A stretch of DNA of 64,000 bases, taken from positions 1,893,528-1,957,527 of the forward strand of contig LT599018.1 of NCBI GenBank assembly GCA_900079685.1. Reading direction: 5' to 3'. The stretch comes from an uncultured delta proteobacterium. Its GTDB lineage: Bacteria > Desulfobacterota > Desulfovibrionia > Desulfovibrionales > Desulfovibrionaceae. Positions 16,627 to 32,313 of the stretch are shown in pieces (position 1 is the first letter of the stretch; every line of letters starts with the position of its first letter). The notes under the pieces were generated by a model. It was not told where the DNA came from and searched no databases. It worked only from the letters and a program-made list of their open reading frames with translations. A program made the translations under genes and the position numbers.

Positions 16627-16742
16627 AACCGGCGAGATTGACCCCACGCCCCGACGTAATCCGCCCTATACCGTTTTGCTCTGCTCAAACGGAAGGCGAT
16701 GACGATTGCCTCTTCGAATCATCCATAGCCACCAAAAAAGGC

Positions 16743-16774
16743 AGGCCGTTCAAGGGGGTACCCTTGAACGGCCT
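16743..16774 (-). terminator. Terminator of the tct operon
   Basis: AGGCCGTTCAAGGG (16743-16756) pairs perfectly with CCCTTGAACGGCCT (16761-16774). On the minus strand the hairpin is followed by a T6 tract (16734-16739), so it ends leftward transcription from the tct genes. Confidence 0.85.
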
Positions 16775-16849
16775 GTTGCACAACGGATTAAAATGAGCCG
16801 GCACCGGTCATGTGGTACGCGCGTTTGCGCACCACCTGCGCCGTAATTT

Positions 16850-18122
16850 TTACGCTTCCACCATGGGGGCGGCTTTTTTTTGCGCGCGCCTGCTCTGCAA
16901 GAGGTGCTTGATTACCGGGTAAAACAGAGCCGCGACCGAAATCAGGATAAACGTCAGGGAAATGGGTCTGGAAACAAATATCCACCAGCTCCCCTCGGAC
17001 ATGGCCAACCCCCGCCGCATGCTGCTTTCCGCGATAGGCCCGAGAATCATGGCGATCACCATGGGGGTCACGGGAAAATCCAGTTCAACCAGGATATAGC
17101 CCACCACCGCGAAGCCGAGCATGAGTATCACGTCAAAGATGGTGTTGTTGCAGGCAAAGGCGCCGGTAATGCACAAGATGACCAGCAGAGGAAGAAGAAG
17201 GGCGGTGGGAATGCGGGTCACATTGGCGAATATCTTGATGAACACCCGGCCCTGGAAGAACATAAAAATGTTAATCACCGCCATGATGGCCACGATCGAA
17301 TAGATGAAGACGCCTTGGGTCTGGAACAGCGTCGGGCCGGGGTACATGCCGTGCATGACCAGCGCGCCGAGCAGGATGGCCGTCACCGTGTCGCCGGGAA
17401 TGCCGAGGGTGAGCAGCGGTATCAGGGCCGCTCCGGTGACCGCGTTGTTGGCGGACTCCGCCGCCGCGACCCCGTCCAGCTCTCCCGTGCCGAAGGTTTC
17501 GGGGTGCGGGGAACTGCGCCTGGCCTCATTGTAGGCCAGGAACGCCGAGGTTGTGGACCCAGTTCCCGGCACCGCGCCGATGAACGTGCCGATCATGCTC
17601 GATTTGAAAAGGGTCCGGGCATACTTCGTCAGCTGTCTGAAGGAAAGCATCTCTTTGGAAAAAGTCGCGATCTCATCGGCGGGCGCGAAAACTTTTTTGC
17701 TTTTCTGGAGAATTTCAGTAATGGCGAAAAGCCCGACCATGGCAGGAATAATGCTGATACCCTGCAAAAGATCCGTAACGCCGAAGGTCAGCCGGTCCGT
17801 GGCGCTGATGGGGTCCATGCCGATGCACGAAACAAGCAGGCCCAGCATGCCGGAGAGCAGGCCCTTGGCCAGGTTGCCGCTGCTGATGCTGGAGATCATG
17901 GTCAGGCCGAACAGCGCCAGAGCGAAGTACTCGACCGGGGAGAACCCGAGCGCGAAACTGGCCAGTTGGGGAGCAACCAAAAGGAGCATCAGCGTGCTGA
18001 TAAGGCCGCCGATGCAGGAGGCTTTCAGCGCCATATCCAGGGCAAGGTTGGCCTTGCCCTGCTGCGCCAGAGGGTAGCCGTCCAGCAAGGTCGCGCCGGA
18101 AGCGGGAGTGCCCGGAGTCGCG
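16850..18122 (-). pseudogene. tctA: TctA-family permease, 5' part deleted
   Basis: From Met 18088 the frame gives 412 residues of a TctA large permease; full-length members have about 500. Reading the same frame further back gives TPGTPASGATLLDGYPLAQQ, the conserved TctA motif normally found about 100 residues in. Then, at about 18115-18123, the sequence changes abruptly to that of a tctC gene in another frame. The membrane part downstream (e.g. GAVPGTGSTTSAFLAYNEA, ALIPLLTLGIPGDTVTAILLGAL) is undamaged. The start codon, first helices and any tctB are gone, so it is almost surely non-functional. A strong terminator lies beyond the stop. Confidence 0.85.
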
Positions 18123-18542
18123 GTTGTACGGGGCGTCGTATTTTACGACGACGCACTGGGGTTCCTGGTTCAGGCCGCAGAGAATGCGGTAGTCGTTAAG
18201 GGAATACTTAACATCCCGCATGAACGGCTGCACGGTGAACAACGCGTTGGCCGTCAGCAGCACACTGTAGCCGTCCTTTTTGGCGTGCATGAACTCGGCC
18301 GTTGCCGTAAGGCCGCCGACCCCGGCGCGAAAAACCAGGTTCAGGGGCTGCCCGAGATAATCCGGGGCTATTTCGGCTATCTTGTTGCCCATAAGGCCGG
18401 AAGAGCCGCCCGGGGGGAAGGGCACCACAAAGGTAATGGGCCGGGTCGGAAAATCTTTGGGTTTCGCCGCCGCAAAGGCCGACCCGGCGAACAGGGCCGT
18501 GAACAGGCTTAGCACTGCCAGCGTCATCACAACTCGCTTCAT
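18117..18542 (-). pseudogene. tctC: TctC-family solute-binding protein, 3' part deleted
   Basis: ATG 18542, behind AAGGAG, opens a signal peptide and about 140 residues of a TTT-family (Bug/TctC) binding protein: RPITFVVPFPPGGSSG, YLGQPLNLVFRAGVGG, VKYDAPYN. After PYN (codon at 18123-18125) the reading passes into tctA sequence out of frame. The product would end in unrelated residues and lack the second lobe. It is clearly a paralogue of the intact tctC immediately upstream in the operon (18647-19630), with near-identical stretches. The likely cause is a deletion removing the end of tctC2, tctB and the start of tctA. Confidence 0.88.
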
Positions 18543-18606
18543 ACACACTCCTTGCTGCTACGGGTTACGGTCTGTTTCCAGATACGGGAATGCCTGCTCC
18601 GCCCGC

Positions 18607-18646: not shown

Positions 18647-19630
18647 CTACTTTTTCGCCACGCCGAGTTCTTTCAGAATCTTGTGCGTTTCCTCGATTTC
18701 CGGAACGATGCGGGCGGTGATGTCCTTGCCGGTCGCATCGAACATCACGTTGTAATTCTTTTCGCTGAACTCTATCCAGCGCTTGTCCCTGAGAATTTTG
18801 ATGAACGCGTCTTCCAGGAAGGCCGCCCGGTCTTCCGGGGTCCCCGCGGGCACGCAGAGGAATTTGTATATCATCAGCGGATCGCCGTACCCCAGTTCCT
18901 TGAACGTCGGGACATCCTTGTACAGGTCGCTGGTGTCGCGTTCCTCGGCGAGGAGGCCCAGGGGCTTCATCTGCTTTTCCCGGATATAGTTGAACACCTC
19001 GGGCGTGCCGCCGGTGGCTATGTCGATATGGCCGCCGAGCACGTTAATCAGCGGTTCCGCGCCGCCGCTGAACGGCACGCTCTGCGCCTCGATCCCCGCC
19101 CGCTTGTACAGGAGGACCTGGTTGTTGTAGTTCATGCCGCCGGTTCCGGAACTGCCGAACTTGAGGGGACGGCCGGCTTTTTTGAAGTATTCGGCCATCT
19201 CTTTGATGGTGTTATACGGGGCGTCATAGCGCACCACGATCAACTGGGGGTCCTTGTGGACGCCGCACAGGATGCGGTAGTCGTTGATGCTGTATTTGAC
19301 GTCCCGCATGAACGGCTGCACCGTGAACACGGCGTTGGGAGCCAGGAGCACGGTGTACCCGTCCTTTTTGGCGTGGGCGAACTCGGCCGTTGCCGTAAGG
19401 CCGCCCACCCCGGGCCGGTAGACGATATTCAGGGGCTGGCCGAGATACTCTTCGGCATACTCGCCGATTTTGTTCGCCATCAGCCCCGAGGAACCGCCGG
19501 GGTTAAAAGGCACGATGAACGTAATGGGCCGGGTAGGGAAATCCTTGGGTTTTTCCGCGGCGGACGCCGCTCCGGCGAACATACCCGCAACCATGTATAC
19601 AACAGCCAGCAGAACCAGTCCTTTTCTCAT
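18647..19630 (-). CDS. tctC: TTT-family (Bug/TctC) solute-binding protein
   Basis: A 327-residue periplasmic binding protein. The signal peptide covers ~1-24 (LVLLAVVYMVAGMFAGAASA). Bug/TctC features follow in order: FPTRPITFIVPFNPGGSSG, LGQPLNIVYRPGVGGLTATA, and KPLKFGSSGTGGMNYN near residue 165. It captures a carboxylate for a TctAB permease. The only TctA here is broken, so transport must use another permease or has been lost. ATG 19630 follows AGGAGA. It lies 39 bp behind the ATC-hydrolase fusion gene on the same strand, which suggests a substrate related to that enzyme. Confidence 0.92.
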   Translation of the reverse strand: MRKGLVLLAVVYMVAGMFAGAASAAEKPKDFPTRPITFIVPFNPGGSSGLMANKIGEYAEEYLGQPLNIVYRPGVGGLTATAEFAHAKKDGYTVLLAPNAVFTVQPFMRDVKYSINDYRILCGVHKDPQLIVVRYDAPYNTIKEMAEYFKKAGRPLKFGSSGTGGMNYNNQVLLYKRAGIEAQSVPFSGGAEPLINVLGGHIDIATGGTPEVFNYIREKQMKPLGLLAEERDTSDLYKDVPTFKELGYGDPLMIYKFLCVPAGTPEDRAAFLEDAFIKILRDKRWIEFSEKNYNVMFDATGKDITARIVPEIEETHKILKELGVAKK

Positions 19631-19669: not shown

Positions 19670-21487
19670 CTATGATGCCGGGAAAGCCTTTTCCGCGGCG
19701 GTCAGGTAGTCGCTGCCGAAGCGTTTGATAAACTCGAAGGTGGCCGCGTCGTACGCGTCCTGCCCTTTCTCGCCCAGTTGCGCGATTATTTCTCCGCCCA
19801 CGGTCCGTAAAACATGACCCGTGTGGAACGTGAAATCCTTGGTGAATGTGGTGCCGAATGCCGCGCGTTTTCTGTCGAATTCCGCGCGCATGGGTTCCGT
19901 CATTTCGAACCCCCAGTCAAAGGTGCACTGTTCATGGCCGAGCGGGATAAGCGTTGGGACCTCCACCACAAAGTCCTCGTTAAAGGCCCGGTACAGGTTC
20001 TTGTCCATGTTTTCGCAAAAATAGAGGCCGTACTCCAGCAAGCCGTGCTTTTTCCAGGCTTCCACCCATTCGCAGCGCGTGATGGAGGTGACGTAGCTGG
20101 GCGAATACTGGGTGGGGCCGGGGACCATTTTGCCGGGGCCCTGGTCGGGCCATTCCCTGTAGAGCCGGTAATTGTTCCGCGCAAGTTCGTCCCCGTTGTC
20201 CAGGGCGTTTTGGCGCATCCTTTTGCCGCGTTCCGTGGCGTGCTTGACCGTGCCGTCGACCAGCGCCTTTTTTCCGGCCTCGCCGCACCGCCGGATGGCT
20301 TCTCTCGCCAGCAGCCCGTAGAGCACCCCATGGTGCTCCATGGTGCAGGTCACCTCTTTGGGCGGGTCGGACAAGTGGTGCCGGGTATGGTCGATAACCT
20401 CACGGAGCATATTCCGTGTTTCCCGCTGCAGCGCGTCGTACCAATCCTGACCGGGGAGTTCTTCGTCTATCTTGCTGAAACAGGGCGTGACGAGCGGTTC
20501 GATGCGGCGGAAGAACTCAATGCAGGCCCGTTCCAGGATGCCCCCCCGGGTGGCGTGCTTGCGCGTCTGCCATTCAAGTTGTTCGCGTGGTTCCAGCTGG
20601 GCGGTGTGGAGTTTGATGTCGATGTTGATGTTCTCCAACGTATCCGCCAGTTCCGCGCTCAGGCCATGGTCGCGGAGTTCCGCTTTCATGCCTTCGGCGT
20701 AAACGGCCAACGCCTTGGAAAGCACATCATATATACGCGGCGGCACGGCGGCCTTGTCGCAAGGAGTGCTCGGAACCGGCGGGGTGTAGCGGACGCGGTG
20801 CGATGCGCGCATGGCCTCGGCTATCTTGTTATGGGATATTTTCCTGCCCAGCGCGTCGGAAACCGCGAACACGAAATCGTTCAGGATCTGGGTGCTGGAA
20901 GAGGAGGAGATCGCCACGGCGAGTTGCTCGGGAGCGAAGCGGATTATCCTGCCGAGCGGCGCGAGAAAACGTTTTACCCGCTCTTCGCGGTCCGCAGGCC
21001 AGGGCTGTTCCTCGGGGAGAGTCAGACGGGAATACCCCTCCCCGGCGATGTCCAGGTCGCCGATTTTCGTGTTCATGTTGGGCAGGATATTGGCCACGTA
21101 AACATCCTTGCCCAGGAGATTCAGGTACCATGTGCCGAGAGGCTTGGGCGGGAAGGCGTAAATGTCCGGCAAGGGCGCGCCCTTGGACCGCAGCTCGTCA
21201 TAATAGGGTTTGAGGTCTTCCTCGGCGATGGCCGGGGCCACGTGCGGCGGGGGCGCGAAAAGAATGATGTCGGGCTTCAGGCGGCGCAGGGCCTCGCCGT
21301 TATCGCCGAGCTGGATGGGAAACCCGAATTTTTTCCGTTTTCGTTCCAGGTCGCGGGAATCGGCTGTGACGGCAAGGAGATTGGCGCCGCAGTTTTCCTG
21401 AAGAAAAGCCTGATAACAAGGGGCTATGTATTCCATGAGGTAGCCCATGCCGATGATGACTATTTTCGAATCCTTGTCGGCTTTCAC
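19670..21487 (-). CDS. Fusion: NAD(P)-binding (P5CR/ProC-like) domain + ATC-hydrolase-like domain
   Basis: A 605-residue protein with two unrelated halves. The N-terminal Rossmann domain (about residues 4-110; KIVIIGMGYLMEYIAP, PDIILFAPPPHV) and following helices resemble pyrroline-5-carboxylate-reductase-type oxidoreductases. The C-terminal part (about 385-600) is an L-2-amino-thiazoline-4-carboxylate hydrolase-like domain: TMEHHGVLYGLLAREAIRRC, TRCEWVEAWKKHGLLEYG, HEQCTFDWGFEM. It resembles the separate protein encoded next to it. I chose GTG 21487 because CGGAGGG stands 5 nt ahead, between the previous stop (21502) and this start; the ATG at 21535 would overlap the previous gene without a ribosome-binding site. 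Its reaction is unknown; context suggests hydrolysis of a heterocyclic or imine amino-acid derivative linked to reduction. Confidence 0.75.
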   Translation of the reverse strand: MKADKDSKIVIIGMGYLMEYIAPCYQAFLQENCGANLLAVTADSRDLERKRKKFGFPIQLGDNGEALRRLKPDIILFAPPPHVAPAIAEEDLKPYYDELRSKGAPLPDIYAFPPKPLGTWYLNLLGKDVYVANILPNMNTKIGDLDIAGEGYSRLTLPEEQPWPADREERVKRFLAPLGRIIRFAPEQLAVAISSSSSTQILNDFVFAVSDALGRKISHNKIAEAMRASHRVRYTPPVPSTPCDKAAVPPRIYDVLSKALAVYAEGMKAELRDHGLSAELADTLENINIDIKLHTAQLEPREQLEWQTRKHATRGGILERACIEFFRRIEPLVTPCFSKIDEELPGQDWYDALQRETRNMLREVIDHTRHHLSDPPKEVTCTMEHHGVLYGLLAREAIRRCGEAGKKALVDGTVKHATERGKRMRQNALDNGDELARNNYRLYREWPDQGPGKMVPGPTQYSPSYVTSITRCEWVEAWKKHGLLEYGLYFCENMDKNLYRAFNEDFVVEVPTLIPLGHEQCTFDWGFEMTEPMRAEFDRKRAAFGTTFTKDFTFHTGHVLRTVGGEIIAQLGEKGQDAYDAATFEFIKRFGSDYLTAAEKAFPAS

Positions 21488-21501
21488 AATACCCTCCGGG
21501 A

Positions 21502-22200
21502 TTAAGGAAATGCTCTTTGGATCGCATCCACGCACTGTTTGCCGAATTTTTCCTCAAAAGCCTTGAGGGCAGCGGCGCGGATGGCCGCGCCCGTTGCCGC
21601 CCCAAGCTGTTCCGCGAATTCGCTGCTCAAGGCGTGCAGCACGTGGCCGGTGTGGTAGTCAAAGTCTTTGACGTACTTGGTGCCCAACGCGGCGCTTTTC
21701 TCGGCCAGTTCCTTTTCCAGCTCCGGCGTCAGGGCGTATCCCCAGTCAAAGGTGCACCGGTCGTCCCCTTCCGAAAGCAGGGTGGTGATGTTCACCTCAT
21801 AATCCTCGGACCAGCCGCGGCAGAGATACCGGTCGACATAGCGGCAATACATTTTGCCGAACTCCGCGAGTTCGTGCCGCTTCCAGCTTTCCGCCCATTC
21901 ACAGCGGAGCTGCTGGGTTATGAAGGAGGGCGTTTTCTGGACGACCGGCCCGGGAACCATCAGCCCTTGGCGCGGCGGCTGCCATTCCTTGTACAAACGG
22001 TACGCGGGCCTTGTGAGGGGCTCGTTGTCGGCGATGGCCTTTTGCGCCATGCGCGCGCCCCGTTCCCGGCCGTAACGGGCCGTGGCGTCCCGGGCGGCTT
22101 TGTCGCCCGCGGCACCGTGTTTGAGCGCTTCGCGTATCAGGAGAGCGTAAAGAACCGCATGCTGTTCAATGCCGCACAGGGCGGTCGTTCCCGTCGTCAT
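21502..22200 (-). CDS. L-2-amino-thiazoline-4-carboxylate (ATC) hydrolase family protein
   Basis: A 232-residue stand-alone member of the ATC-hydrolase family. Shared motifs with the fused copy downstream are IEQHAVLYALLIREALKHG near the N-terminus, LRCEWAESWKRHELAEFGKMYC in the middle, DRCTFDWGYAL, and a YHTGHVLHAL segment near the C-terminus. In Pseudomonas the founding enzyme opens L-ATC to N-carbamoyl-L-cysteine, which an amidohydrolase then converts to cysteine. Here an M20 amidohydrolase is encoded immediately upstream (stop and start 14 bp apart), so a similar two-step route is plausible. The true substrate is not known. ATG 22200 follows AAAAGGGAGT. Confidence 0.8.
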   Translation of the reverse strand: MTTGTTALCGIEQHAVLYALLIREALKHGAAGDKAARDATARYGRERGARMAQKAIADNEPLTRPAYRLYKEWQPPRQGLMVPGPVVQKTPSFITQQLRCEWAESWKRHELAEFGKMYCRYVDRYLCRGWSEDYEVNITTLLSEGDDRCTFDWGYALTPELEKELAEKSAALGTKYVKDFDYHTGHVLHALSSEFAEQLGAATGAAIRAAALKAFEEKFGKQCVDAIQRAFP

Positions 22201-22214
22201 TCCGTACTCCCTTT

Positions 22215-23552
22215 TCAAGAGGTTGTTTCGGCGGTCAAGGGCACAAATCCTTTTGCAGTCCGTGAAAATTCTTCCTTGACCCTTGCCAGCAGGGCCGGGT
22301 CCTCCAGCAGGGCAAGGCCGGCCTGGGCCATGACTTTGGCCGCGTAGCACATGCCTTTCCAGCCGATGCCGGAGTCGGAGCAGGCCGCGAACTGCCAGCT
22401 GTGCAAGGGGAAGCCTTTCGGTGCGCAGACCGATTTCATATAGCCCGTGGGAGCGACCTGGCTGACGTCGGAAACGTCCGTCGATCCGGCCATGAAGCTG
22501 ACCATGCCGGTCAGCGGCGGCAGGACGGTTTCAATGGACCCGTCGGCTGCCGGATTGTCCACATGCTTGGCGAGTTTCGCGGCAAAGTCCAATTCATCCC
22601 CGGTATACGCGGGCAGAGGGGTCTGTTTCATGACAGTGTCGTACAGCCCGCACAAGGTGTGGTTGACCAGCGTTTCATAGCCTCTGGTCTTGAATTCCCA
22701 CGAAGCCCGCGTGCCGGTCATCAAGGCGGCCCCTTTGGCGATGTCCAGGATGCGGGAAGTCACGTCGTCGACGGTTGTGCGCTTGCGCGCGCGGATAAAG
22801 TACCAGAGCCCGGCGTTGGCCGGAACGACGTTGGGTTTTCCGGGGCCGTCCATGTAGGCGTAATGGATACGCACATCGTCCGGGACATGCTCGCGCAGGT
22901 AGTTGGCGCCCACGTTCATCAGCTCGGCCGCGTCCAGGGCGCTGCGCCCCATTTCCGGCGACCCCGCCGCATGGGACGCTTTGCCCTGAAAGAAAAAATG
23001 CACGGAATCCATGGCCAGGTAGCTGGTTTCCCCGAGGCCGTAAACGATGCCGGGATGCCAGCTCAACGCGGCGTCCAGTTCCCGGAAGCAGCCGTTGTTG
23101 GCCATGATGATCTTGCCCTTGAGAATTTCCTCCGAAGGGCAGCCGTAATAGACGACGGTGCCGGGAATGCCTTTGGCTTCCATGGCGTAGCGCAGGGCAA
23201 CGGCGGCAGCCGCGGAACCCGCGCCCAGCAGGTTGTGCCCGCAGCCATGGCCGTTCCTTCCGGCGTCGCCGTCGCGATAGGGAACCGGTTTCTGGTCCAG
23301 CCCCGGCAGGGCGTCGTATTCCCCCAGGAAGCCGACGGTGGGCGAACCCTTGCCCCATACGGCCCTGAACGCCGTGGGCAGCCCGCCGGAATTGCTCTCC
23401 AGGGAAAATCCGTGACGCTTCAGATAGTCGGCGATCCGGCGGGTAGATTGGTTTTCTTCGTCGGCGACTTCCGCGTAGGTAAAGATGTCGTGGGCCAAGG
23501 ATTCAATTTCTCCAGAGTGGTCCTCAACCCATTGCTGCACGCTTTGATCCAT
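22215..23552 (-). CDS. M20-family amidohydrolase (AbgB/IAA-amino-acid hydrolase-like)
   Basis: A 445-residue metallo-amidohydrolase. The catalytic domain shows FLGEYDALPGL, GHGCGHNLLGAGSA (metal-binding Cys/His), the PSEE acid pair and SWHPG. A lid domain is inserted at about 180-300 (GKASHAAGSPEMGRSALDAAELM). A C-terminal metal ligand segment with SFMAGSTDVSDVS and HSWQFAACSD follows. It should cleave an N-acyl or N-carbamoyl amino acid. ATG 23552 follows AAGGAG. First gene of the leftward operon with two ATC-hydrolase-like proteins and tctC. A promoter lies about 160 bp upstream. Confidence 0.88.
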   Translation of the reverse strand: MDQSVQQWVEDHSGEIESLAHDIFTYAEVADEENQSTRRIADYLKRHGFSLESNSGGLPTAFRAVWGKGSPTVGFLGEYDALPGLDQKPVPYRDGDAGRNGHGCGHNLLGAGSAAAAVALRYAMEAKGIPGTVVYYGCPSEEILKGKIIMANNGCFRELDAALSWHPGIVYGLGETSYLAMDSVHFFFQGKASHAAGSPEMGRSALDAAELMNVGANYLREHVPDDVRIHYAYMDGPGKPNVVPANAGLWYFIRARKRTTVDDVTSRILDIAKGAALMTGTRASWEFKTRGYETLVNHTLCGLYDTVMKQTPLPAYTGDELDFAAKLAKHVDNPAADGSIETVLPPLTGMVSFMAGSTDVSDVSQVAPTGYMKSVCAPKGFPLHSWQFAACSDSGIGWKGMCYAAKVMAQAGLALLEDPALLARVKEEFSRTAKGFVPLTAETTS

Positions 23553-23985: not shown

Positions 23986-24717
23986 TTAGAGTGTAAAGAA
24001 CATATACCGCCCTACTCCCTCGCCGAGAACGAGCAGAACAACCCCGGCGGCGGCAACCCCCGGAAGGGACGCACCGCCGAAAAGCACGCGGAAGCCCGCC
24101 ACCAGGCCGAGGGCCGCCAGAAGAAACCGGGCCACGGCAATGGGCTCGCGGACGCCCCCGCCGAAAAATCCGGCGTTCAGGATGAACAGAACCGCCCCGA
24201 GCCCGAACAGCACCCGGAGGATGCGCAGGTCGGACGGGTCATCGTGCCGCCAACAGCCGACCAGAAAGGGACCGGTAAGCAGGGCCGCGGCGAAAAAATC
24301 CGCATAGGGGCAACTGCTCGTCCATTTGGGCACGACCGTTCCCGCGTAAACCCGCGCGGAGACGAACACCAGCAATATCCCGGCGATCGCGGCCAGGGGC
24401 AGCAGAATCGCCGTCATGTTCCCTTTCCGGGCGAACAGAGCTGCCAGAACCGTGAGCGACGCGAACGCCACCACGAGCAGGGCTTCCCGGCTCAACCAGG
24501 AAGAGGAAACGTGCAATAGCGCCCGGTACGCGCCGGCCATGTCGCCGAGGTGCGTCAGGGAAAAGACCGACCCGGCCACGGCGATGACGGCGAAGAGGCC
24601 CAGTTCGCGAGAACCGGCCCTGCCGCTCCCCAGGCGGTCGACAAGAGCCAGAGCCACAACCCCGCCGACAGCCACTTGCAGCGCCAGGGTAAAAATAAGG
24701 AGTGACCATTCATTCAT
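23986..24717 (-). CDS. dmsC: DMSO-reductase-type membrane anchor subunit
   Basis: A 243-residue protein with about eight membrane helices and almost no loops. It matches the DmsC family (opening MNEWSLLIFTLALQVAVGG, then FSLTHLGDMAGAYRALLHVSSSWLSRE near residues 53-77). It should oxidise menaquinol and pass electrons to DmsB. The order dmsA-dmsB-dmsC on the minus strand is the normal operon order. It ends just short of an approximately 280-bp gap. Confidence 0.88.
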   Translation of the reverse strand: MNEWSLLIFTLALQVAVGGVVALALVDRLGSGRAGSRELGLFAVIAVAGSVFSLTHLGDMAGAYRALLHVSSSWLSREALLVVAFASLTVLAALFARKGNMTAILLPLAAIAGILLVFVSARVYAGTVVPKWTSSCPYADFFAAALLTGPFLVGCWRHDDPSDLRILRVLFGLGAVLFILNAGFFGGGVREPIAVARFLLAALGLVAGFRVLFGGASLPGVAAAGVVLLVLGEGVGRYMFFTL

Positions 24718-24744
24718 GACGTATGCCCTGCCTTTACCCGGAAT

Positions 24745-25326
24745 TCAGGATTTTTCCGCGTTCTTGTGCGGTTTGATGACCAGGTTGGGGCGGGTCGTGG
24801 CCGATGCGGGCAGCCCTTTGATATCCGCCAACGTTCCATATTGCGCGCGCAATTCCTCTATGGGGCCGAACTTGATCAATTCCAGCGGACAGGCGCCGAC
24901 GCAGGCCGGTTCCTGCCCTTTGGCGATGAGATCAAGGCACAGGTCGCACTTGCTCATCTTGCCCTTGCTCGCGGCAAACTTCGGCGCGCCGTAGGGGCAA
25001 TTCCAGACGCAATACCGGCACCCCACGCAGAGGTTTTGATCCACGGCCACGATGCCGTCCTCCGGCCGCTTGTGCATGGCGGTCGTGGGGCACCCGGAAA
25101 CGCATTTCGGCTCGGAACAGTGGTTGCAGGCCATGGAAACCCAATAAGCCCAGACGCTGTTCGTATACGCCTTGCCGCTGGGCGCGAAGGCGCCGCCGCG
25201 ATGCGGCGTGACCGTTCTGAAAAACCGTTCGTCATCCAGATTGTTTTTATCCTTGCAGGCCATGGCGCAGGCATTGCAGCCGCTGCACCTGCTCTCGTCG
25301 ATGTAAAAACCGTACTGTTTTGTCAT
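24745..25326 (-). CDS. dmsB: DMSO-reductase-type iron-sulfur subunit
   Basis: A 193-residue ferredoxin-like subunit with 16 cysteines arranged for four [4Fe-4S] clusters. CSGCNACAMAC is near residue 14, CNHCSEPKCVSGCP near 67, CVGCRYCVWNCPYGAP near 100 and CDLCLDLIAKGQEPACVGAC near 126. It carries electrons from DmsC to the catalytic subunit. It lies 16 bp behind dmsA. All cluster ligands appear intact here, unlike the FS0 site in DmsA. Confidence 0.93.
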   Translation of the reverse strand: MTKQYGFYIDESRCSGCNACAMACKDKNNLDDERFFRTVTPHRGGAFAPSGKAYTNSVWAYWVSMACNHCSEPKCVSGCPTTAMHKRPEDGIVAVDQNLCVGCRYCVWNCPYGAPKFAASKGKMSKCDLCLDLIAKGQEPACVGACPLELIKFGPIEELRAQYGTLADIKGLPASATTRPNLVIKPHKNAEKS

Positions 25327-25342
25327 GGTGGTCGTCCTTCAC

Positions 25343-27700
25343 CTAGGCCTTTTTGATATCCACAAGACAGCTATGGTGCGCGTTACCGTGCGCCAAGGGT
25401 GTTTTGCGCATGGTCGTCAGCACGTTGAGACAGCCGCTTTTGTCCACGCCGTCCGGGCCGGGATTGTACCAGCCGCCGGACGGTACCGCCAGAACGCCGG
25501 GGATGATCCGCTCGGTCACCTCGGCGGTGATCACAATGGCGCCCCGGTCGTTAAACACGCGGACAACGTCGCCGTGCCGTATGCCTTTCTTGTCCGCATC
25601 CAGCGGGTTGATCCACATCACCTGCCGCGCCACCTGGGTCAGCCACGGGTGAGTGAAGAACGACGAGTTGTCGCGCTGCTTGTTTTTCCAGCCGATAACC
25701 TGGAAGGGATACTTTTCCGCCAGCGGGTCCGCCGGTCCTTCCCAGGCGGGAACGTACTTGGCCACGGCCGGAACCTGCGGGTCGTTGCGGTCATACAGCC
25801 GCTTGGAGAACAGTTCGATTTTCCCCGAAGGCGTGGGGAACGGGTTGGCCTCAAGGTCGTCTATCTGCTTTTTGAAGGTGACCATGGTAGGGTATTTGAA
25901 ATAGTAAATGCCCTGTTTTTTCATGGCTTCCCACTCGGGAACGTCCGGGTATTTCTTACGCGTTTCGTCCAGCATGAACCGGACCCATTCCTCCTGGGTG
26001 CGCCCTTCCGTGAACTCCTTTTCCACCCCGAGCTTTTTGGCAACGTCCGTCAGCCAGTCGTAGGGATGGCGCGCCTCAAACATGGGCTGCACCACTTTTT
26101 GCGAAAGAATGAAATACGCGCCGCTGTTCCAGGTTGAGGCAAGATCCCACCCCTCGAAGAAGGTCGTGGAGGGCAGGACGATGTCCGCGTAGTTGCAGGT
26201 CTGGGTCATGAGCAGGTCGCTGGCGAGGAAGAACTCCACCTTGCTTTCGTCTTCCAGCAGCTTCCTGGTGGCGTTCAGGTCCGGGTTCTGGCCCATGACA
26301 TAGTTGCCCGCGATGGAAACGAGCATTTTTATGGGCACGTTCAGCTTTTCGCCGTCCACCAGCCCCTCGGCCTGGCTGACCCTGGTGTAATCCTCAATGG
26401 CGTCCGTCCACTGCATGATGTTGATTTTGTGCTTGATCGGGTTTTTCCCGCTGGGCATCGTGGTCTGGAAGGGGCGCGAAACCCCGCCGTACCCCCCGGC
26501 CCAGCCGCCGAGTTTGCCGACGTTCCCCGTGATGCAACACAGCATGGCTGAGCCCCTGGACGTGCGCTCGCCGCTGGAATGGCGTTGCGGCCCCCAGCCG
26601 GAAAGGATGGCGGCGGGTTTTGCCGAGGCGTATTCCCGGGCCAGCTGGCGGATGGTGTTGGCTTTCACCTTGCAGATGCCTTCCGCCCATTCCGGGGTTT
26701 TCTTTACCCCGTCTTTCACGCCCATAAGGTACGTCAGGTAGGATTCCCCTTCGGGAACGCCCTCCGGCATGTGATCCTCGTCAAAGCCCAGACAGTATTT
26801 GTCCAGGAATTCCTTGTCGTGCAGGTTTTCGGTCACGATGACGTAAGCCATGGCATCCATGAGCGCGGAATCCGTATTGGGCAGCAGGGGAATCCACTCG
26901 TCCGCGTAGGATATGGCCGAGTCAGAATAGCGGGGGTCGACCGCGATGATCTTGCAGCCCCGCTCCTTGGCGAGATTCAAATAGTAGTTGCTGTGGCCGA
27001 AAATGGTTTCCGTCGGGTTGTGTCCCCAAAGAATGATGAGCTTTGAGTGCAGGACGGAATCCATGCTGTTGCCGGTGTTGGAAACCCCGTAGGTGAACAT
27101 CGTGGCCGCGGCCGTGTTGCCCATGCTCACGGAATGGTAGTAGTCCAGAAAACCGCCGTGGCAGTTGAACAGCCGTTTGGCCAGGTTGGCGTACACCGTG
27201 GCCCCGCCCGTGGTGCCGGTGCCAACGGTGACGAAGCGGGAATCCGGCCCGTACTTTTCCGTAATTTCCTGGGTCTTTCGGGCTATGATCTCGATGGCCT
27301 CGTCCCAGGAGATGCGGGCCCACTTGCCTTCGCCCCGTTTGCCGACCCGTTTCATGGGGTATTTCAGGCGGTCCGGGTGGTACTGGTATTTTCTGTAGCC
27401 CCGGCCGCGTACGCAGCCTTTCATGACCGGCATGTCCGGGTTGAGTTCCGAGGTTGTCCTCGTGCTGATGCGGGTTATGACCCCGTCCACGAGGTGGACC
27501 TTGTTAAGACACCGCCCGCCGCAATCCAGCGTACTGGCCGTGGGGATGACCAATTCCCCGGCGGCCCCGCCCTGGGCGAACGCCAGCTCCAAGAACGGGT
27601 TGCTGTACAGCATGAAGGGCACCGCCGCCGCGCCGGCGGCCGACCACTTCAAAAACGTCCGGCGCGACATGCCGGGAGTTTCTTTGTCATTCGAGCTCAT
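25343..27700 (-). CDS. dmsA: DmsA-like molybdopterin oxidoreductase, catalytic subunit
   Basis: A 785-residue exported molybdoenzyme. A twin-arginine signal SRRTFLKW (R13, R14) and hydrophobic stretch precede the mature chain. The FS0 [4Fe-4S] site reads S56-x3-C60-x3-C64-x31-C96: the first of the usual four cysteines is serine. A CLRG-like CVRGRGYRKYQYHPDRLKYPMKRVG follows, as in DMSO reductases. The bis-MGD-binding domains span the rest, and a serine at 190-192 lies where the Mo ligand is expected. The C-terminal beta-barrel ends in ANRxHSC-like AHHSCLVD. It probably reduces an S- or N-oxide, using electrons from DmsBC. Its start overlaps the torD stop by 14 bp. Confidence 0.92.
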   Translation of the reverse strand: MSSNDKETPGMSRRTFLKWSAAGAAAVPFMLYSNPFLELAFAQGGAAGELVIPTASTLDCGGRCLNKVHLVDGVITRISTRTTSELNPDMPVMKGCVRGRGYRKYQYHPDRLKYPMKRVGKRGEGKWARISWDEAIEIIARKTQEITEKYGPDSRFVTVGTGTTGGATVYANLAKRLFNCHGGFLDYYHSVSMGNTAAATMFTYGVSNTGNSMDSVLHSKLIILWGHNPTETIFGHSNYYLNLAKERGCKIIAVDPRYSDSAISYADEWIPLLPNTDSALMDAMAYVIVTENLHDKEFLDKYCLGFDEDHMPEGVPEGESYLTYLMGVKDGVKKTPEWAEGICKVKANTIRQLAREYASAKPAAILSGWGPQRHSSGERTSRGSAMLCCITGNVGKLGGWAGGYGGVSRPFQTTMPSGKNPIKHKINIMQWTDAIEDYTRVSQAEGLVDGEKLNVPIKMLVSIAGNYVMGQNPDLNATRKLLEDESKVEFFLASDLLMTQTCNYADIVLPSTTFFEGWDLASTWNSGAYFILSQKVVQPMFEARHPYDWLTDVAKKLGVEKEFTEGRTQEEWVRFMLDETRKKYPDVPEWEAMKKQGIYYFKYPTMVTFKKQIDDLEANPFPTPSGKIELFSKRLYDRNDPQVPAVAKYVPAWEGPADPLAEKYPFQVIGWKNKQRDNSSFFTHPWLTQVARQVMWINPLDADKKGIRHGDVVRVFNDRGAIVITAEVTERIIPGVLAVPSGGWYNPGPDGVDKSGCLNVLTTMRKTPLAHGNAHHSCLVDIKKA

Positions 27701-28373
27701 GAGAAATATCTCCTAAAAGTTCGGTGAGAAAAGAAGCGTCAGTAGGAAGAAATTCCGCGATCAGGCGCGCCAGCCCCGCGTACAGCCCGGTTTGGGCGTG
27801 GGGGAACTGGAGGGTGAACGATTGGGGAGCCCACTCAAGGAGGTGGCTTTTCAGAAAATCCAACTGGTCCGAGCATAGGGAAACAAAACGGGGCAAGGCG
27901 GATTCCGTGTCCTCCCCATCCAGCGCTTGCACGCTTAACGATGTGAGGTGCCACATGAATTCGAGTTCCGGCGCGATATGGTCATCGGGTTCCGTTCCCT
28001 GCCGGGAAAATCCCAGGCCGTACCGGCCGTAAAACCGGCGGACCGCCAGCGTGGCCTCGCCGAAAAGGACGTGCTCCGGGTCGCGGTACACGGACTCCCA
28101 CAAGGGCGAAGGCAGGGCTTGCGGCCCCACGTAGAGGCGCGCATACTCCTCTTCCGCCTCTTTCATGGCGGCGGGGTTGCGCAGACAGGCCGCAGCGCTT
28201 TCCGCAATCCGGGCAACCGGCTCCAGTTCCCTGGCCAGAAGCGGCAGGGCCGGGTCCGCGTTGATGCGGGACAACAGCGCAAACGTGGGCGCATTGCCCG
28301 TCAGCGCTTGTCCCAGGCTGTAAACCCGCCCGCGTAAAATCGCGGGGGAACGGAGTTCGGCGATCGGTCGCAC
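27687..28373 (-). CDS. TorD/DmsD-family molybdoenzyme chaperone
   Basis: A 228-residue all-helical chaperone. The diagnostic EPDDHIAPELEFMWHL segment lies near 127-142, and a second LYVGP motif near 80-84. Such proteins bind the twin-arginine signal of the catalytic subunit and hold it until the molybdenum cofactor is inserted. It is first in the torD-dmsABC operon and overlaps dmsA by 14 bp, suggesting coupled translation. The start is taken at ATG 28373; no strong ribosome-binding site is visible. Confidence 0.88.
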   Translation of the reverse strand: MRPIAELRSPAILRGRVYSLGQALTGNAPTFALLSRINADPALPLLARELEPVARIAESAAACLRNPAAMKEAEEEYARLYVGPQALPSPLWESVYRDPEHVLFGEATLAVRRFYGRYGLGFSRQGTEPDDHIAPELEFMWHLTSLSVQALDGEDTESALPRFVSLCSDQLDFLKSHLLEWAPQSFTLQFPHAQTGLYAGLARLIAEFLPTDASFLTELLGDISHELE

Positions 28374-28721
28374 GTAACCATCTCCATGCCACCCGCCCTG
28401 CCCGGCAAAAGACGCGGGACCAGAATGCGGATGACGCTGCTGTCGTTCTTACGAAGGAAATACAAATGACCATGAACCGCGTAACGCGGCCATGCGGGCC
28501 GGGAGGCCTCATTGAAAGGGTACCTTGAACGCTCCTTTGATCCTGCGGTCACGTAGCCGCGACGGTAAACGCCCGGCGGCAGGCCAAAAAGTACATACCC
28601 TGAGGGAGAAACAAACACGGCATACATGCGTGCATTGCGGCGCGCATGATTTTGGCATACGAAGTTTCCTTCAAAATAGCAACTTTTTTATATAAGAAAA
28701 CTGTAAAAAGGATCTCCAGGG
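28374..28721. other. Intergenic region upstream of torD, with a possible toxin-gene remnant
   Basis: This 348-bp gap separates torD from the FmdE/MPT-binding gene. No riboswitch or clear promoter was recognised. On the minus strand, 28397-28510 encodes a stretch (RPAWPRYAVHGHLYFLRK, then VIRILVPRLLP) resembling the C-terminal half of ParE-type toxins. It lacks the N-terminal half and has no antitoxin partner, so it would be a relic. Confidence 0.3.
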
Positions 28722-30413
28722 CTACTTGAGAAAGCCGCACTTCGGCCAGGTGCAGGCTTTGCAGTTTTTGCAAAAGCCCCCTTCGCCGAAAGAGGCCATG
28801 TCTATCCGCGTGAGCGTTCTGCCCGCCAGGACGCGCGGCAGCAAGGCATCGAAAAACGTGGTTTTGTGGTACAACGCACACGCGGGCACCCCCATCACCT
28901 GCATCGCCCCCGCCGGCGGGCCGGCATGCCCGTCTTCCCGGCGCGGCCCGGCGGAATCGGGCGCGGGCAAATACCCCACCAGGCTCATGGCGCCCGGCAG
29001 AACCGGCGCGCCGTAGAGCATATCCTCCACGCCCTCTTCCGTCAGGGCCGCGCGGGTCAGATCGCCGGGGTCGACGGACATGCCGCCGGTGGTGATAAGC
29101 AGATCCGCCCCGGCCGCGCGGATATCCGCAATACCTTGCCGCAGCAGGGCCGTGTCGTCCGGCGCGATGACGGTCTTGACCACGGAACAGCCGTAGGCCT
29201 GCACTTTCGCGCTGATGACCGGAATGAATTTATCCTCGATCAGCCCCTGGAATATCTCCGTTCCGGTGACGAGAATGCCGACCTTTGCCCGGCGCATGGG
29301 CGCGACGGAAAGCAGCGGGCCGTCCAGCGCGCCGAGGGCTTCGGCGAACCGCTCCTCGCTGATGTACAGCGGAATGACCCGCGTGCCCGCGACCTCGTTG
29401 CCCGCCGCGACCACGCTCCCGTCCTGCCGGGTCGCGGCCATCACGTCCGGAACCAGGTTAAAGGCAAGGAGCCGCGCCTTATTGAGCGTGAACAGCCCCG
29501 ACGCCGTGGCCCTGAAAGTGATTTTTCCTTCCTTCGGGGGAAGGCTGTACTCGATATTTTTCCCGGCCATGCGCCCGGCGAAGGCCTCGGCCCCCCGGTT
29601 CTCATGCACGAAACCCGATGGGGCGCCTTCTTGCACCGCAACGGTGAACCGCCCCATCTGCTGCAACCGGCAAACGTCCCCGGCGCTGATGATCTGCCCC
29701 GCTGAAAACGCCGCCCCCTTGGATCGGCCGGGAATGATTTCCGTCATGTCGTGCAGCGCGGTTTTCCCCACGGCCTCTTCCACGGGAACCACGGCAACGG
29801 CCGGGACGGACGGCGCGGGGGAAGGAATCCTGTCCCGTTCCGGCAGCAAACTGGTGTAAGGGGTCTCCCCCTGGCAGCCCCGGCAGATGAGCCCGTCGGA
29901 AGAGGGGAACGCCTCGTTGCAGCGCGGGCAGACCGCAATGCCGCTGGAATGGCCGTGGCCGAGAAAACGCGGGCTTATCCGCACGGGCATGATGGAGCAG
30001 ACCGAGTCGCCTGCGGTTTCTATTTCCCGCAGCAGGATGTCCGTATCCTGATCCTTTTTGGGCTTCAGTTTCAAAAACCAGGCGCGAAGTTCCGGGTATG
30101 CCCGGATTTTTTCCGGGTCGACATGCACCCTGAACCCTACGCCCGTATATTTGTCATAGAGGGAAAGCGCGTACCGGCCGAGGTTAAGCACCTTCATCCA
30201 GTTGTTGCCCGTGCTGCAGAGCGTCAGGAGCTGCACCGCGTCGGGGAGGCATTTTCTGGATTCAACGAGCGCTTCGAACAGCGTCCCTTCCGGAAGGTCC
30301 TTTCTGGCCATTTCGACCATATAGCCGCCGAGCAGCAGGCCGGGAGCGGGATACCCGTGAAAGTCGGCGGCCTTTTGCTTGAATTCCGCAAAGGTATACT
30401 GTCCTATGTTCAT
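28722..30413 (-). CDS. FmdE-domain / molybdopterin-binding (MoeA/MogA-like) fusion protein
   Basis: A 563-residue fusion. The N-terminal FmdE-like domain (~1-150; DFHGYPAPGLLLGGYMVEMA) is followed by a zinc-ribbon-like CPRC...CRGC (~168-190). A MoeA-like/MoCF-biosynthesis domain follows (~220-520; VGILVTGTEIF, ITTGGMSVDPGDLTR). A short C-terminal cysteine motif, CKNCKACTWPKC, ends the chain. The central part should bind molybdopterin and the FmdE part may bind a metal. It probably handles cofactor maturation or metal insertion for the neighbouring DMSO-reductase-like enzyme. ATG 30413 follows AGAAGGGA. No overlap with neighbours; tatA lies 100 bp upstream on the same strand. Confidence 0.8.
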   Translation of the reverse strand: MNIGQYTFAEFKQKAADFHGYPAPGLLLGGYMVEMARKDLPEGTLFEALVESRKCLPDAVQLLTLCSTGNNWMKVLNLGRYALSLYDKYTGVGFRVHVDPEKIRAYPELRAWFLKLKPKKDQDTDILLREIETAGDSVCSIMPVRISPRFLGHGHSSGIAVCPRCNEAFPSSDGLICRGCQGETPYTSLLPERDRIPSPAPSVPAVAVVPVEEAVGKTALHDMTEIIPGRSKGAAFSAGQIISAGDVCRLQQMGRFTVAVQEGAPSGFVHENRGAEAFAGRMAGKNIEYSLPPKEGKITFRATASGLFTLNKARLLAFNLVPDVMAATRQDGSVVAAGNEVAGTRVIPLYISEERFAEALGALDGPLLSVAPMRRAKVGILVTGTEIFQGLIEDKFIPVISAKVQAYGCSVVKTVIAPDDTALLRQGIADIRAAGADLLITTGGMSVDPGDLTRAALTEEGVEDMLYGAPVLPGAMSLVGYLPAPDSAGPRREDGHAGPPAGAMQVMGVPACALYHKTTFFDALLPRVLAGRTLTRIDMASFGEGGFCKNCKACTWPKCGFLK

Positions 30414-30512
30414 GCATCGTCCCTTCTGTCCCGGCGGCATAGCGAAGAGTAGAAGACATGCGGTCCGCCGCCGGGCGGGCCGCATTGGGCCTGAAACACA
30501 AAGAGACGGGCG

Positions 30513-31593: not shown

Positions 31594-32151
31594 TCAGTCA
31601 TCCGCCAGCAGGCAGGCGAACCCGAGGCCGAGGGCCAGGGCCGCTCCGGCCACCAGAAGGACCGGCGCCGAGGCCATCCCCGCCGCGCCCAGTCCGGCGG
31701 CGCCGAGCTTGGCCGTGGTTCCCGCGCCCACGGCCGTGGCGGTTGCCGTACCTCCCAGCACGGCGTTGCCGGCCGCGCCCGCAAAAACCCTTCTCGCGGC
31801 GAACATCCCGGCTCCGGCCATGGCCGCCGTCGCCCTCTGTACCTGCCCGCTGTGTTCCAGACCGCACGCGCACCAGGTGGCGAAATGCTCGCAGTTTTGA
31901 AAAACAAGGCTGTAGCCGCTTTCGCCCATCCGGGAATAGGCGCGACGCACGATCTCGTCCGGGCTGAAGGTGTCCAGGATCAGATAGGTGACCGCGACCG
32001 TGGGCATGCCGCCGGCAAATTCCTCCAGCGAGCATTCGCAAATGCCCCTGTCGTCCAGGTAGTGCAGCACCTTGCCGTCGCCGGCGTAAATACCGTGGTG
32101 CGCGTACCCGACGCGCATCGCCTTGAGGTGGTCGCCTTTTGTGAATCGCAT
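31594..32151 (-). CDS. LRAT-like (NlpC/P60 superfamily) protein with hydrophobic tail
   Basis: A 185-residue protein. The N-terminal ~110 residues are a lecithin-retinol-acyltransferase-like domain: GDHLKAMRVGYAHHGIYAGDG holds the histidines and QNCEHFATWCACG the catalytic cysteine. The C-terminal 70 residues are Ala/Gly-rich and hydrophobic, forming probable membrane helices. Such enzymes are thiol acyltransferases or lipases. ATG 32151 follows AAAGGGGGG. The neighbour is an XRE-type regulator on the same strand. Function in bacteria is unsettled; membrane-lipid modification, possibly in defence or stress, is a reasonable guess only. Confidence 0.75.
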   Translation of the reverse strand: MRFTKGDHLKAMRVGYAHHGIYAGDGKVLHYLDDRGICECSLEEFAGGMPTVAVTYLILDTFSPDEIVRRAYSRMGESGYSLVFQNCEHFATWCACGLEHSGQVQRATAAMAGAGMFAARRVFAGAAGNAVLGGTATATAVGAGTTAKLGAAGLGAAGMASAPVLLVAGAALALGLGFACLLADD

Positions 32152-32313
32152 ACGCCCCCCTTTGCGAAGAAGAAGATACCCCGCACAATAGTACCGAAAG
32201 CCACGGCGGCTGGTCAAGGATTCCACCGGCGCGGCAGGTAAAACCTCACTTTTTGACGGAGGCGGAACAAACATTGCCGCCCGCGCCTGATGAGGCAAGG
32301 GCGGCTCGGCTAC

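Follow-up and report, generated by a model that had tools for sequence, protein, structure and literature searches.

Which reaction sequence could be served by an operon in which an M20-type amidohydrolase is encoded next to two proteins of the ATC_hydrolase family, one of them carrying an oxidoreductase-like domain at its N-terminus? The question is raised by a leftward gene run in a 64,000-nucleotide stretch of DNA from an uncultured delta proteobacterium of the Desulfovibrionaceae (contig LT599018.1, positions 1,893,528 to 1,957,527; the whole stretch is called the window). The four adjacent genes that a first-pass annotation had named are all present: an amidohydrolase of the M20D group, a stand-alone ATC_hydrolase-family protein (ATC1), a fusion of a ProC-like N-domain with a second ATC_hydrolase domain, and a TctC-type binding protein. 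Its observation is thus confirmed, and the operon is more than a chance arrangement. It is a variant on the theme of 2-aminothiazoline-4-carboxylate (ATC) hydrolase and amidohydrolase, now with a ProC-type partner. We suggest, with less than even confidence, that it encodes a catabolic module by which an amino acid with a five-membered, sulfur-containing ring is broken down to free cysteine, in the steps set out below.

Proposed route from thioproline to cysteine

Thioproline (thiazolidine-4-carboxylate) is the adduct of formaldehyde and cysteine. In rat tissue and mitochondria it is converted through thiazoline-4-carboxylate and N-formylcysteine to cysteine and formate (PMC2645137). N-formylcysteine is also made from thioproline by bacteria, and the enzyme for its turnover was still termed hypothetical in 2020 (PMC9814826). 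In vitro, at pH 10, thioproline is oxidised by E. coli ProC, and the authors of that work note that cysteine may thereby be regenerated and formate released (PMC12899673). ATC hydrolase cleaves the C-S bond of a thiazoline (PMC5847659). The oxidised ring of thioproline is ATC minus the 2-amino group; the route therefore calls for three activities, those of a ProC-like dehydrogenase, an ATC_hydrolase and an amidohydrolase.

In the proposed module, the ProC-like domain would oxidise the ring of L-thioproline with NAD(P)+ to thiazoline-4-carboxylate. The ATC_hydrolase domain would then open the thiazoline ring hydrolytically to N-formylcysteine, as the counterpart of the conversion of L-ATC to N-carbamoylcysteine, and the M20D enzyme would strip the formyl group to give cysteine and formate. 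In some relatives, the cysteine desulfidase CyuA would further cleave cysteine to pyruvate, ammonia and H2S. The three-step chemistry and the ProC activity are those of the papers cited above; from the genes, domains, residues, gene sets and two kinds of fusion observed, we infer the substrate and which protein would perform which step. That cysteine is the product, released from a thiazoline or thiazolidine, seems slightly favoured, and thioproline as the main substrate is possible, if doubtful. Rather unlikely, in our judgement, is a bacterial module dedicated to thioproline, with ring oxidation and thiazoline hydrolysis both carried out by a single bifunctional protein. Such a module would supply genes for N-formylcysteine amidohydrolase and thiazoline-4-carboxylate hydrolase, two activities on record since 1957.

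Thioproline oxidation as known (by ProC or PutA in E. coli; by the proline oxidase of mitochondria, followed by N-formylcysteine hydrolysis) has three chemical steps that match the three protein types of the operon. There, however, proline enzymes oxidise the ring as a side activity, whereas a dedicated gene set is proposed here. With the Pseudomonas L-ATC pathway (ATC racemase, L-ATC hydrolase and N-carbamoyl-L-cysteine amidohydrolase), the operon shares a PF14196 protein with an amidohydrolase and, in the proposed logic, ring opening followed by amide cleavage to cysteine. Unlike that pathway, it comprises a ProC-type oxidoreductase (fused or adjacent), an M20 enzyme of the TIGR01891 group and two ATC copies, and its hosts are of the anaerobic gut type.

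Conservation of the gene set

The neighbours of ATC relatives were examined in 49 loci, which are labelled L with a number where needed. In the ATC clade to which the window copies belong (18 rows, support 97/92), the sister sequences of gut Lachnospiraceae lie in ATC-M20-ProC operons. M20 follows ATC in most loci of this clade, and in 10 of the 13 clade loci with enough sequence ProC is no more than 2.2 kb away from ATC, these 13 being related and so not independent events. Further lineages with the set are represented by L029 (Clostridium puniceum) and, outside the clade, L057 (Zoogloeaceae). The linkage of ATC hydrolase, M20 and ProC-type oxidoreductase is real and kept in other phyla, contrary to the lack of a conserved neighbourhood that the first-pass annotation had considered. 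The operon ProC is a dedicated extra paralog: the operon genomes checked carry two or three ProC genes, and the genomes of L025 and L031, which have no operon ProC, carry one each. We found no description of an ATC-M20-ProC module in the literature searched, and the text of a survey of proC neighbourhoods in 42 phyla, by the authors of PMC12899673, mentions neither ATC hydrolases nor thioproline operons.

L025 and L031 carry LysR, a FrdA-like flavoprotein, a 2Fe-2S protein, TctCBA, ATC and CyuA, and L025 also has M20. CyuA flanks the set in both loci, and the L025 protein has matches to L-cysteine desulfidases of solved structure (E 5e-24). The C25-x-E27 pair and the three cysteines of the cluster, as reported in the M. 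maripaludis enzyme, are present in the two CyuA proteins. The presence of CyuA beside these sister loci argues for cysteine rather than hydantoins. By inference, the first-pass annotation had envisaged an expanded salvage route for thiazoline, hydantoin-like or imino acids, a reading that is supported in part. By analogy with proline dehydrogenase, the pair of flavin adenine dinucleotide (FAD) and 2Fe-2S proteins, standing in the place of ProC in L025 and L031, is possibly an alternative dehydrogenase. The locus L028 (7986-9962) of Mordavella massiliensis An582 has ATC_hydrolase and M20 in one 659-residue open reading frame (ORF), which could be a true fusion or the product of a lost stop codon.

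One alternative is a sulfur-free cyclic imino acid or lactam-like substrate (pyrroline, imidazoline or hydantoin type), from which proline or some other amino acid would be formed, with ATC_hydrolase opening or forming the ring, ProC reducing the imine and M20 cutting the amide. It would suit the operon ProCs of Lachnospiraceae, which score as proC equivalogs (272 bits vs 196.75), the varied transporters among the loci (Tct, Liv-type and polar amino-acid ATP-binding cassette (ABC) systems) and the breadth of M20D enzymes, which take many N-acyl amino acids. However, the CyuA genes adjoining two sister loci indicate cysteine, and no proline or hydroxyproline gene such as hypD was seen among the operon neighbours examined with profiles, not all neighbours being annotated. 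We consider a sulfur-free substrate unlikely.

The amidohydrolase and the ATC_hydrolase domains

The M20 protein belongs to TIGR01891 (217.7 bits; cut-off 153.75), and its metal ligands C104, H106, E141/E142, H166 and H384 are invariant in 16 sequences. It groups with the M20 of the fusion locus in [Clostridium] asparagiforme (support 100/99). Its scores are far below those of the carbamoyl-amidohydrolase models (14.8 vs 520 for NF058540; 17.6 vs 424 for the allantoate model NF006772). We propose that it is a putative N-formyl- or N-acyl-cysteine amidohydrolase.

These scores also bear on classical ATC salvage, in which L-2-aminothiazoline-4-carboxylate, formed from cyanide and cystine, would be opened to N-carbamoylcysteine and M20 would release cysteine, CO2 and ammonia, leaving the ProC-like domain an accessory role, for example on a reduced or dihydro ring. 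The ATC_hydrolase family is named for this reaction, M20 could carry out the N-carbamoylcysteine step, and the CyuA genes of the sister loci are compatible with it. Nevertheless, the turnover of ATC involves no redox step, whereas the partner seen most regularly is ProC or a ProC-like domain, and M20 is distant from the carbamoyl-specific models. This explanation seems improbable.

Both ATC domains are members of PF14196 (59.3 bits for ATC1 and 69.1 bits for the fusion; gathering score 28.1). They share 44-45% identity, and the tree of 55 relatives places them as sisters (97/82). Across 32 relatives, both window copies included, thirteen columns do not vary, among them C472, C491, C521, D495 and W474/W478 in fusion numbering; ATC1 counterparts are C100, C119, D123 and C149. 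H555 is nearly invariant in the same relatives and present in the fusion C-domain. All family-invariant residues are retained in both domains.

AlphaFold2 predicts both domains with high confidence, the predicted local distance difference test (pLDDT) score being 95.9 for ATC1 and above 95 for the ATC domain of the fusion. The best structural matches of the ATC1 model are TRAPP subunits, the sensor domains of PoxR, MopR and DmpR, and V4R, with Z values up to 7.3, which are middling, yet one fold class makes up the whole match list. This agrees with published work that relates ATC_hydrolase by sequence to V4R and to heme-NO-binding domains (PMC5847659). The predicted fold is shared with V4R, the PoxR/MopR sensors and TRAPP, and the three cysteines conserved between V4R and ATC_hydrolase (PMC5847659) are found in the window domains; unlike those proteins, the ATC domain adds a C-terminal helical part with a conserved KDF..H..H motif.

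The N-domain of the fusion

Residues 1-376 of the fusion match no Pfam or NCBIfam family, and neither the fusion nor the stand-alone N-domain relatives match TIGR00112 or PF14748, one relative matching PF03807 at E 0.0025. In contrast, profile-profile comparison supports the label "ProC-like" given in the first-pass annotation: a six-member N-domain profile aligned by hhalign with the ProC profile gives 94.2% probability (E 1.1e-7), whereas none of the 23 other neighbour families used as controls exceeds 0.8%. With eight members the value is 90.9%, and the alignment is collinear up to residue 346, placing HATRGGILERA opposite TSPGGTTIEGC. The sole Protein Data Bank match of the N-domain profile is pyrroline-5-carboxylate (P5C) reductase, a weak one (E 0.26) in three collinear segments. 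The Rossmann GxG loop is GMGYLM in the fusion, with both glycines invariant in the family, and the motifs PNM and ATRGGILE are also present. When true ProC rows were added to the N-domain alignment, the C-terminal half was misaligned.

The N-domain thus resembles ProC (TIGR00112) in profile over most of its length, in the GxG loop and in the GG motif of the dimerisation domain; it differs in being about 110 residues longer, in the replacement of Thr235/Thr236 and in its fusion to PF14196. Because it matches the ProC profile with both carboxylate-binding threonines replaced, we assign it on sequence grounds to the ProC superfamily and do not regard it as a ProC. Of the cofactor-binding residues on which the first-pass annotation had made its reading depend, the GxG loop is retained; the two ProC substrate threonines are absent.

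A sensor or scaffold role for the fusion, in which a V4R-type ligand-binding domain and a Rossmann NAD(P) sensor would regulate or assemble ATC1 and M20, would fit the sensors and scaffolds among the structural relatives (PoxR, MopR, DmpR, TRAPP), the resemblance of the low-confidence N-domain model to Rex and the missing threonines, but it is very improbable given that the fusion has no DNA-binding or output domain, that both ATC copies keep every invariant residue and that stand-alone ProC genes occupy the same place in Lachnospiraceae.

Several observations weigh against the thioproline module itself. Thr235 and Thr236 of E. coli ProC bind the substrate carboxylate (PMC12899673); the fusion has I317 and L318 at these positions, and its relatives also lack threonine there, so the N-domain may use another compound or be non-catalytic. 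The AlphaFold2 model of the N-domain, taken from the full fusion as a single sequence, is poor (pLDDT about 50), and its matches in VIA-align are mostly generic Rossmann folds, Rex being one of them. The oxidation of thioproline by E. coli ProC is measurable at pH 10 in vitro, and its physiological direction is uncertain. Finally, no M20 stands beside ATC-ProC in L018, L022 and L023, and the adjacency of CyuA is clear in two sister loci only, with a split copy in L052.

Distribution and origin of the fusion

As the first-pass annotation had suggested, the fusion architecture was searched for across genomes, and it was found again in [Clostridium] asparagiforme DSM 15981 (L069), with 36% identity over residues 7-598. 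The gene run there includes M20, a two-component pair and a LivJHMGF amino-acid ABC transporter. Stand-alone N-domain homologues of about 380 residues occur in a few Lachnospiraceae (L101-L104) and in Synergistota (L120, L121); in L121, an ATC gene is close to the N-domain gene, from which it is separated, as read by eye, by one or more other genes.

Among 348 Desulfovibrionales genomes the N-domain occurs in the source genome only, and this rarity suggests that the N-domain or the fusion was probably acquired horizontally. A first draw of 59 relatives contained the fusion in no other genome and a distant ATC copy in one. The plasmid collection gave no match to the fusion, and a phmmer search with the N-domain alone against the ORFs of neighbouring loci returned only the self-match. 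No new N-domain was found in 398 genomes of the phylum of [Clostridium] asparagiforme, nor in 350 genomes of the class of Zoogloeaceae, a draw with no positive control.

In the two fusions, the N-domains group as sisters (100/100). The grouping of their ATC halves as one clade is rejected in the approximately unbiased (AU) test (p 0.011; 0.027 with ATC1 added), which speaks against a simple single origin of both fusions despite the sister N-domains. We tentatively suggest either that fusion happened twice or that the lineage of the window exchanged its ATC half, perhaps for ATC1 through gene conversion; long branches make this reading tentative.

Gene run, transporter and surroundings

Coordinates of the gene run are collected in Table 1. 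The fusion starts with GTG at 21487, preceded by a GGAGG site. Spacing, strand and ribosome-binding sites suggest a single transcript. The G+C content of the operon is 60.8%, against 60.6% for the window.

Table 1. Features of the leftward gene run in the window.
Feature	Position	Strand	Description
M20D amidohydrolase	22215..23552	-	ATG start, 445 aa; matches TIGR01891, PF01546, PF07687
ATC1, stand-alone ATC_hydrolase-family protein	21502..22200	-	232 aa; PF14196; V4R/TRAPP-like fold (predicted)
Fusion ORF	19670-21487	-	605 aa; ProC-like N-domain and ATC_hydrolase C-domain
Fusion N-domain, residues 1-376	20360..21487	-	ProC-superfamily oxidoreductase-like; no Pfam family
Fusion C-domain, about residues 379-605	19670..20359 (incl. 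stop codon)	-	second ATC_hydrolase domain, PF14196
TctC-type substrate-binding protein, intact	18647..19630	-	327 aa; PF03401, 126.8 bits
tctC' remnant, first part of second TctC	18112..18548	-	PF03401 profile positions 5-115 of 274 only
'tctA without N-terminal part	16850..18088	-	PF01970 match begins at profile position 75 of 423
Terminator-like hairpin closing the gene run	16742..16775	-	15-pair stem, then CCTTTTTTGG; top-scoring in scan

The range 19670-23552 given in the first-pass annotation covers genuine genes of this run, but it omits TctC and the damaged tctC'-'tctA stretch down to 16850. In that stretch (window 16850-18548), a second tctC breaks off after about 130 codons and runs, out of frame, into a tctA from which the N-terminal part is missing; the frame changes near 18112, and the junction coordinate, placed by eye, is approximate. 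The operon has no tctB, and so no complete TctCBA set. The join has the appearance of a deletion, or else of an assembly error, and would disable the transporter of the operon itself. Elsewhere the genome has 11 TctA-like genes, and the open frames of its other TctA genes have 503-548 aa. The link to uptake that had been drawn from the TctC gene is weakened by the missing tctB and truncated tctA, although those other TctA-like genes exist.

Upstream on the same strand (window 23986-30485) are genes for DmsC, a DmsB-like ferredoxin, a molybdopterin oxidoreductase with a twin-arginine translocation (TAT) signal, a Nitrate_red_del/TorD-type chaperone and a 587-aa protein composed of FmdE, a treble-clef zinc finger and a MoCF_biosynth domain. 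A 234-aa ORF at window 31594-32298 has a lecithin retinol acyltransferase (LRAT) domain (E 9e-22).

Outside the proposed set, other partners of the ATC_hydrolase family were seen. Three loci of another ATC clade (L036, L039 and L043) have, in order, parts of an amino-acid ABC transporter, M20 (486-503 aa), ATC and a 596-aa flavodiiron-looking protein, which looks like a different partner set for the family. In several loci unrelated to one another (L004, L007, L025, L031 and L065, of which L025 was checked with Pfam), flavoproteins resembling fumarate reductase are encoded close to ATC_hydrolase genes. Since such flavoproteins occur in unrelated loci, a redox partner may be general for the family.

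Implications

If the thioproline module is true, genes would be assigned to a long-known route for which we found no dedicated genes described, and by which common gut bacteria would turn a toxic formaldehyde-cysteine adduct into cysteine and formate. Where CyuA follows, hydrogen sulfide would be an end product. Even with another substrate, the ATC-M20-ProC set and the fusion of a ProC-like domain to ATC_hydrolase place many proteins annotated as "ATC hydrolase" or "extra ProC" in one pathway that can be assayed.

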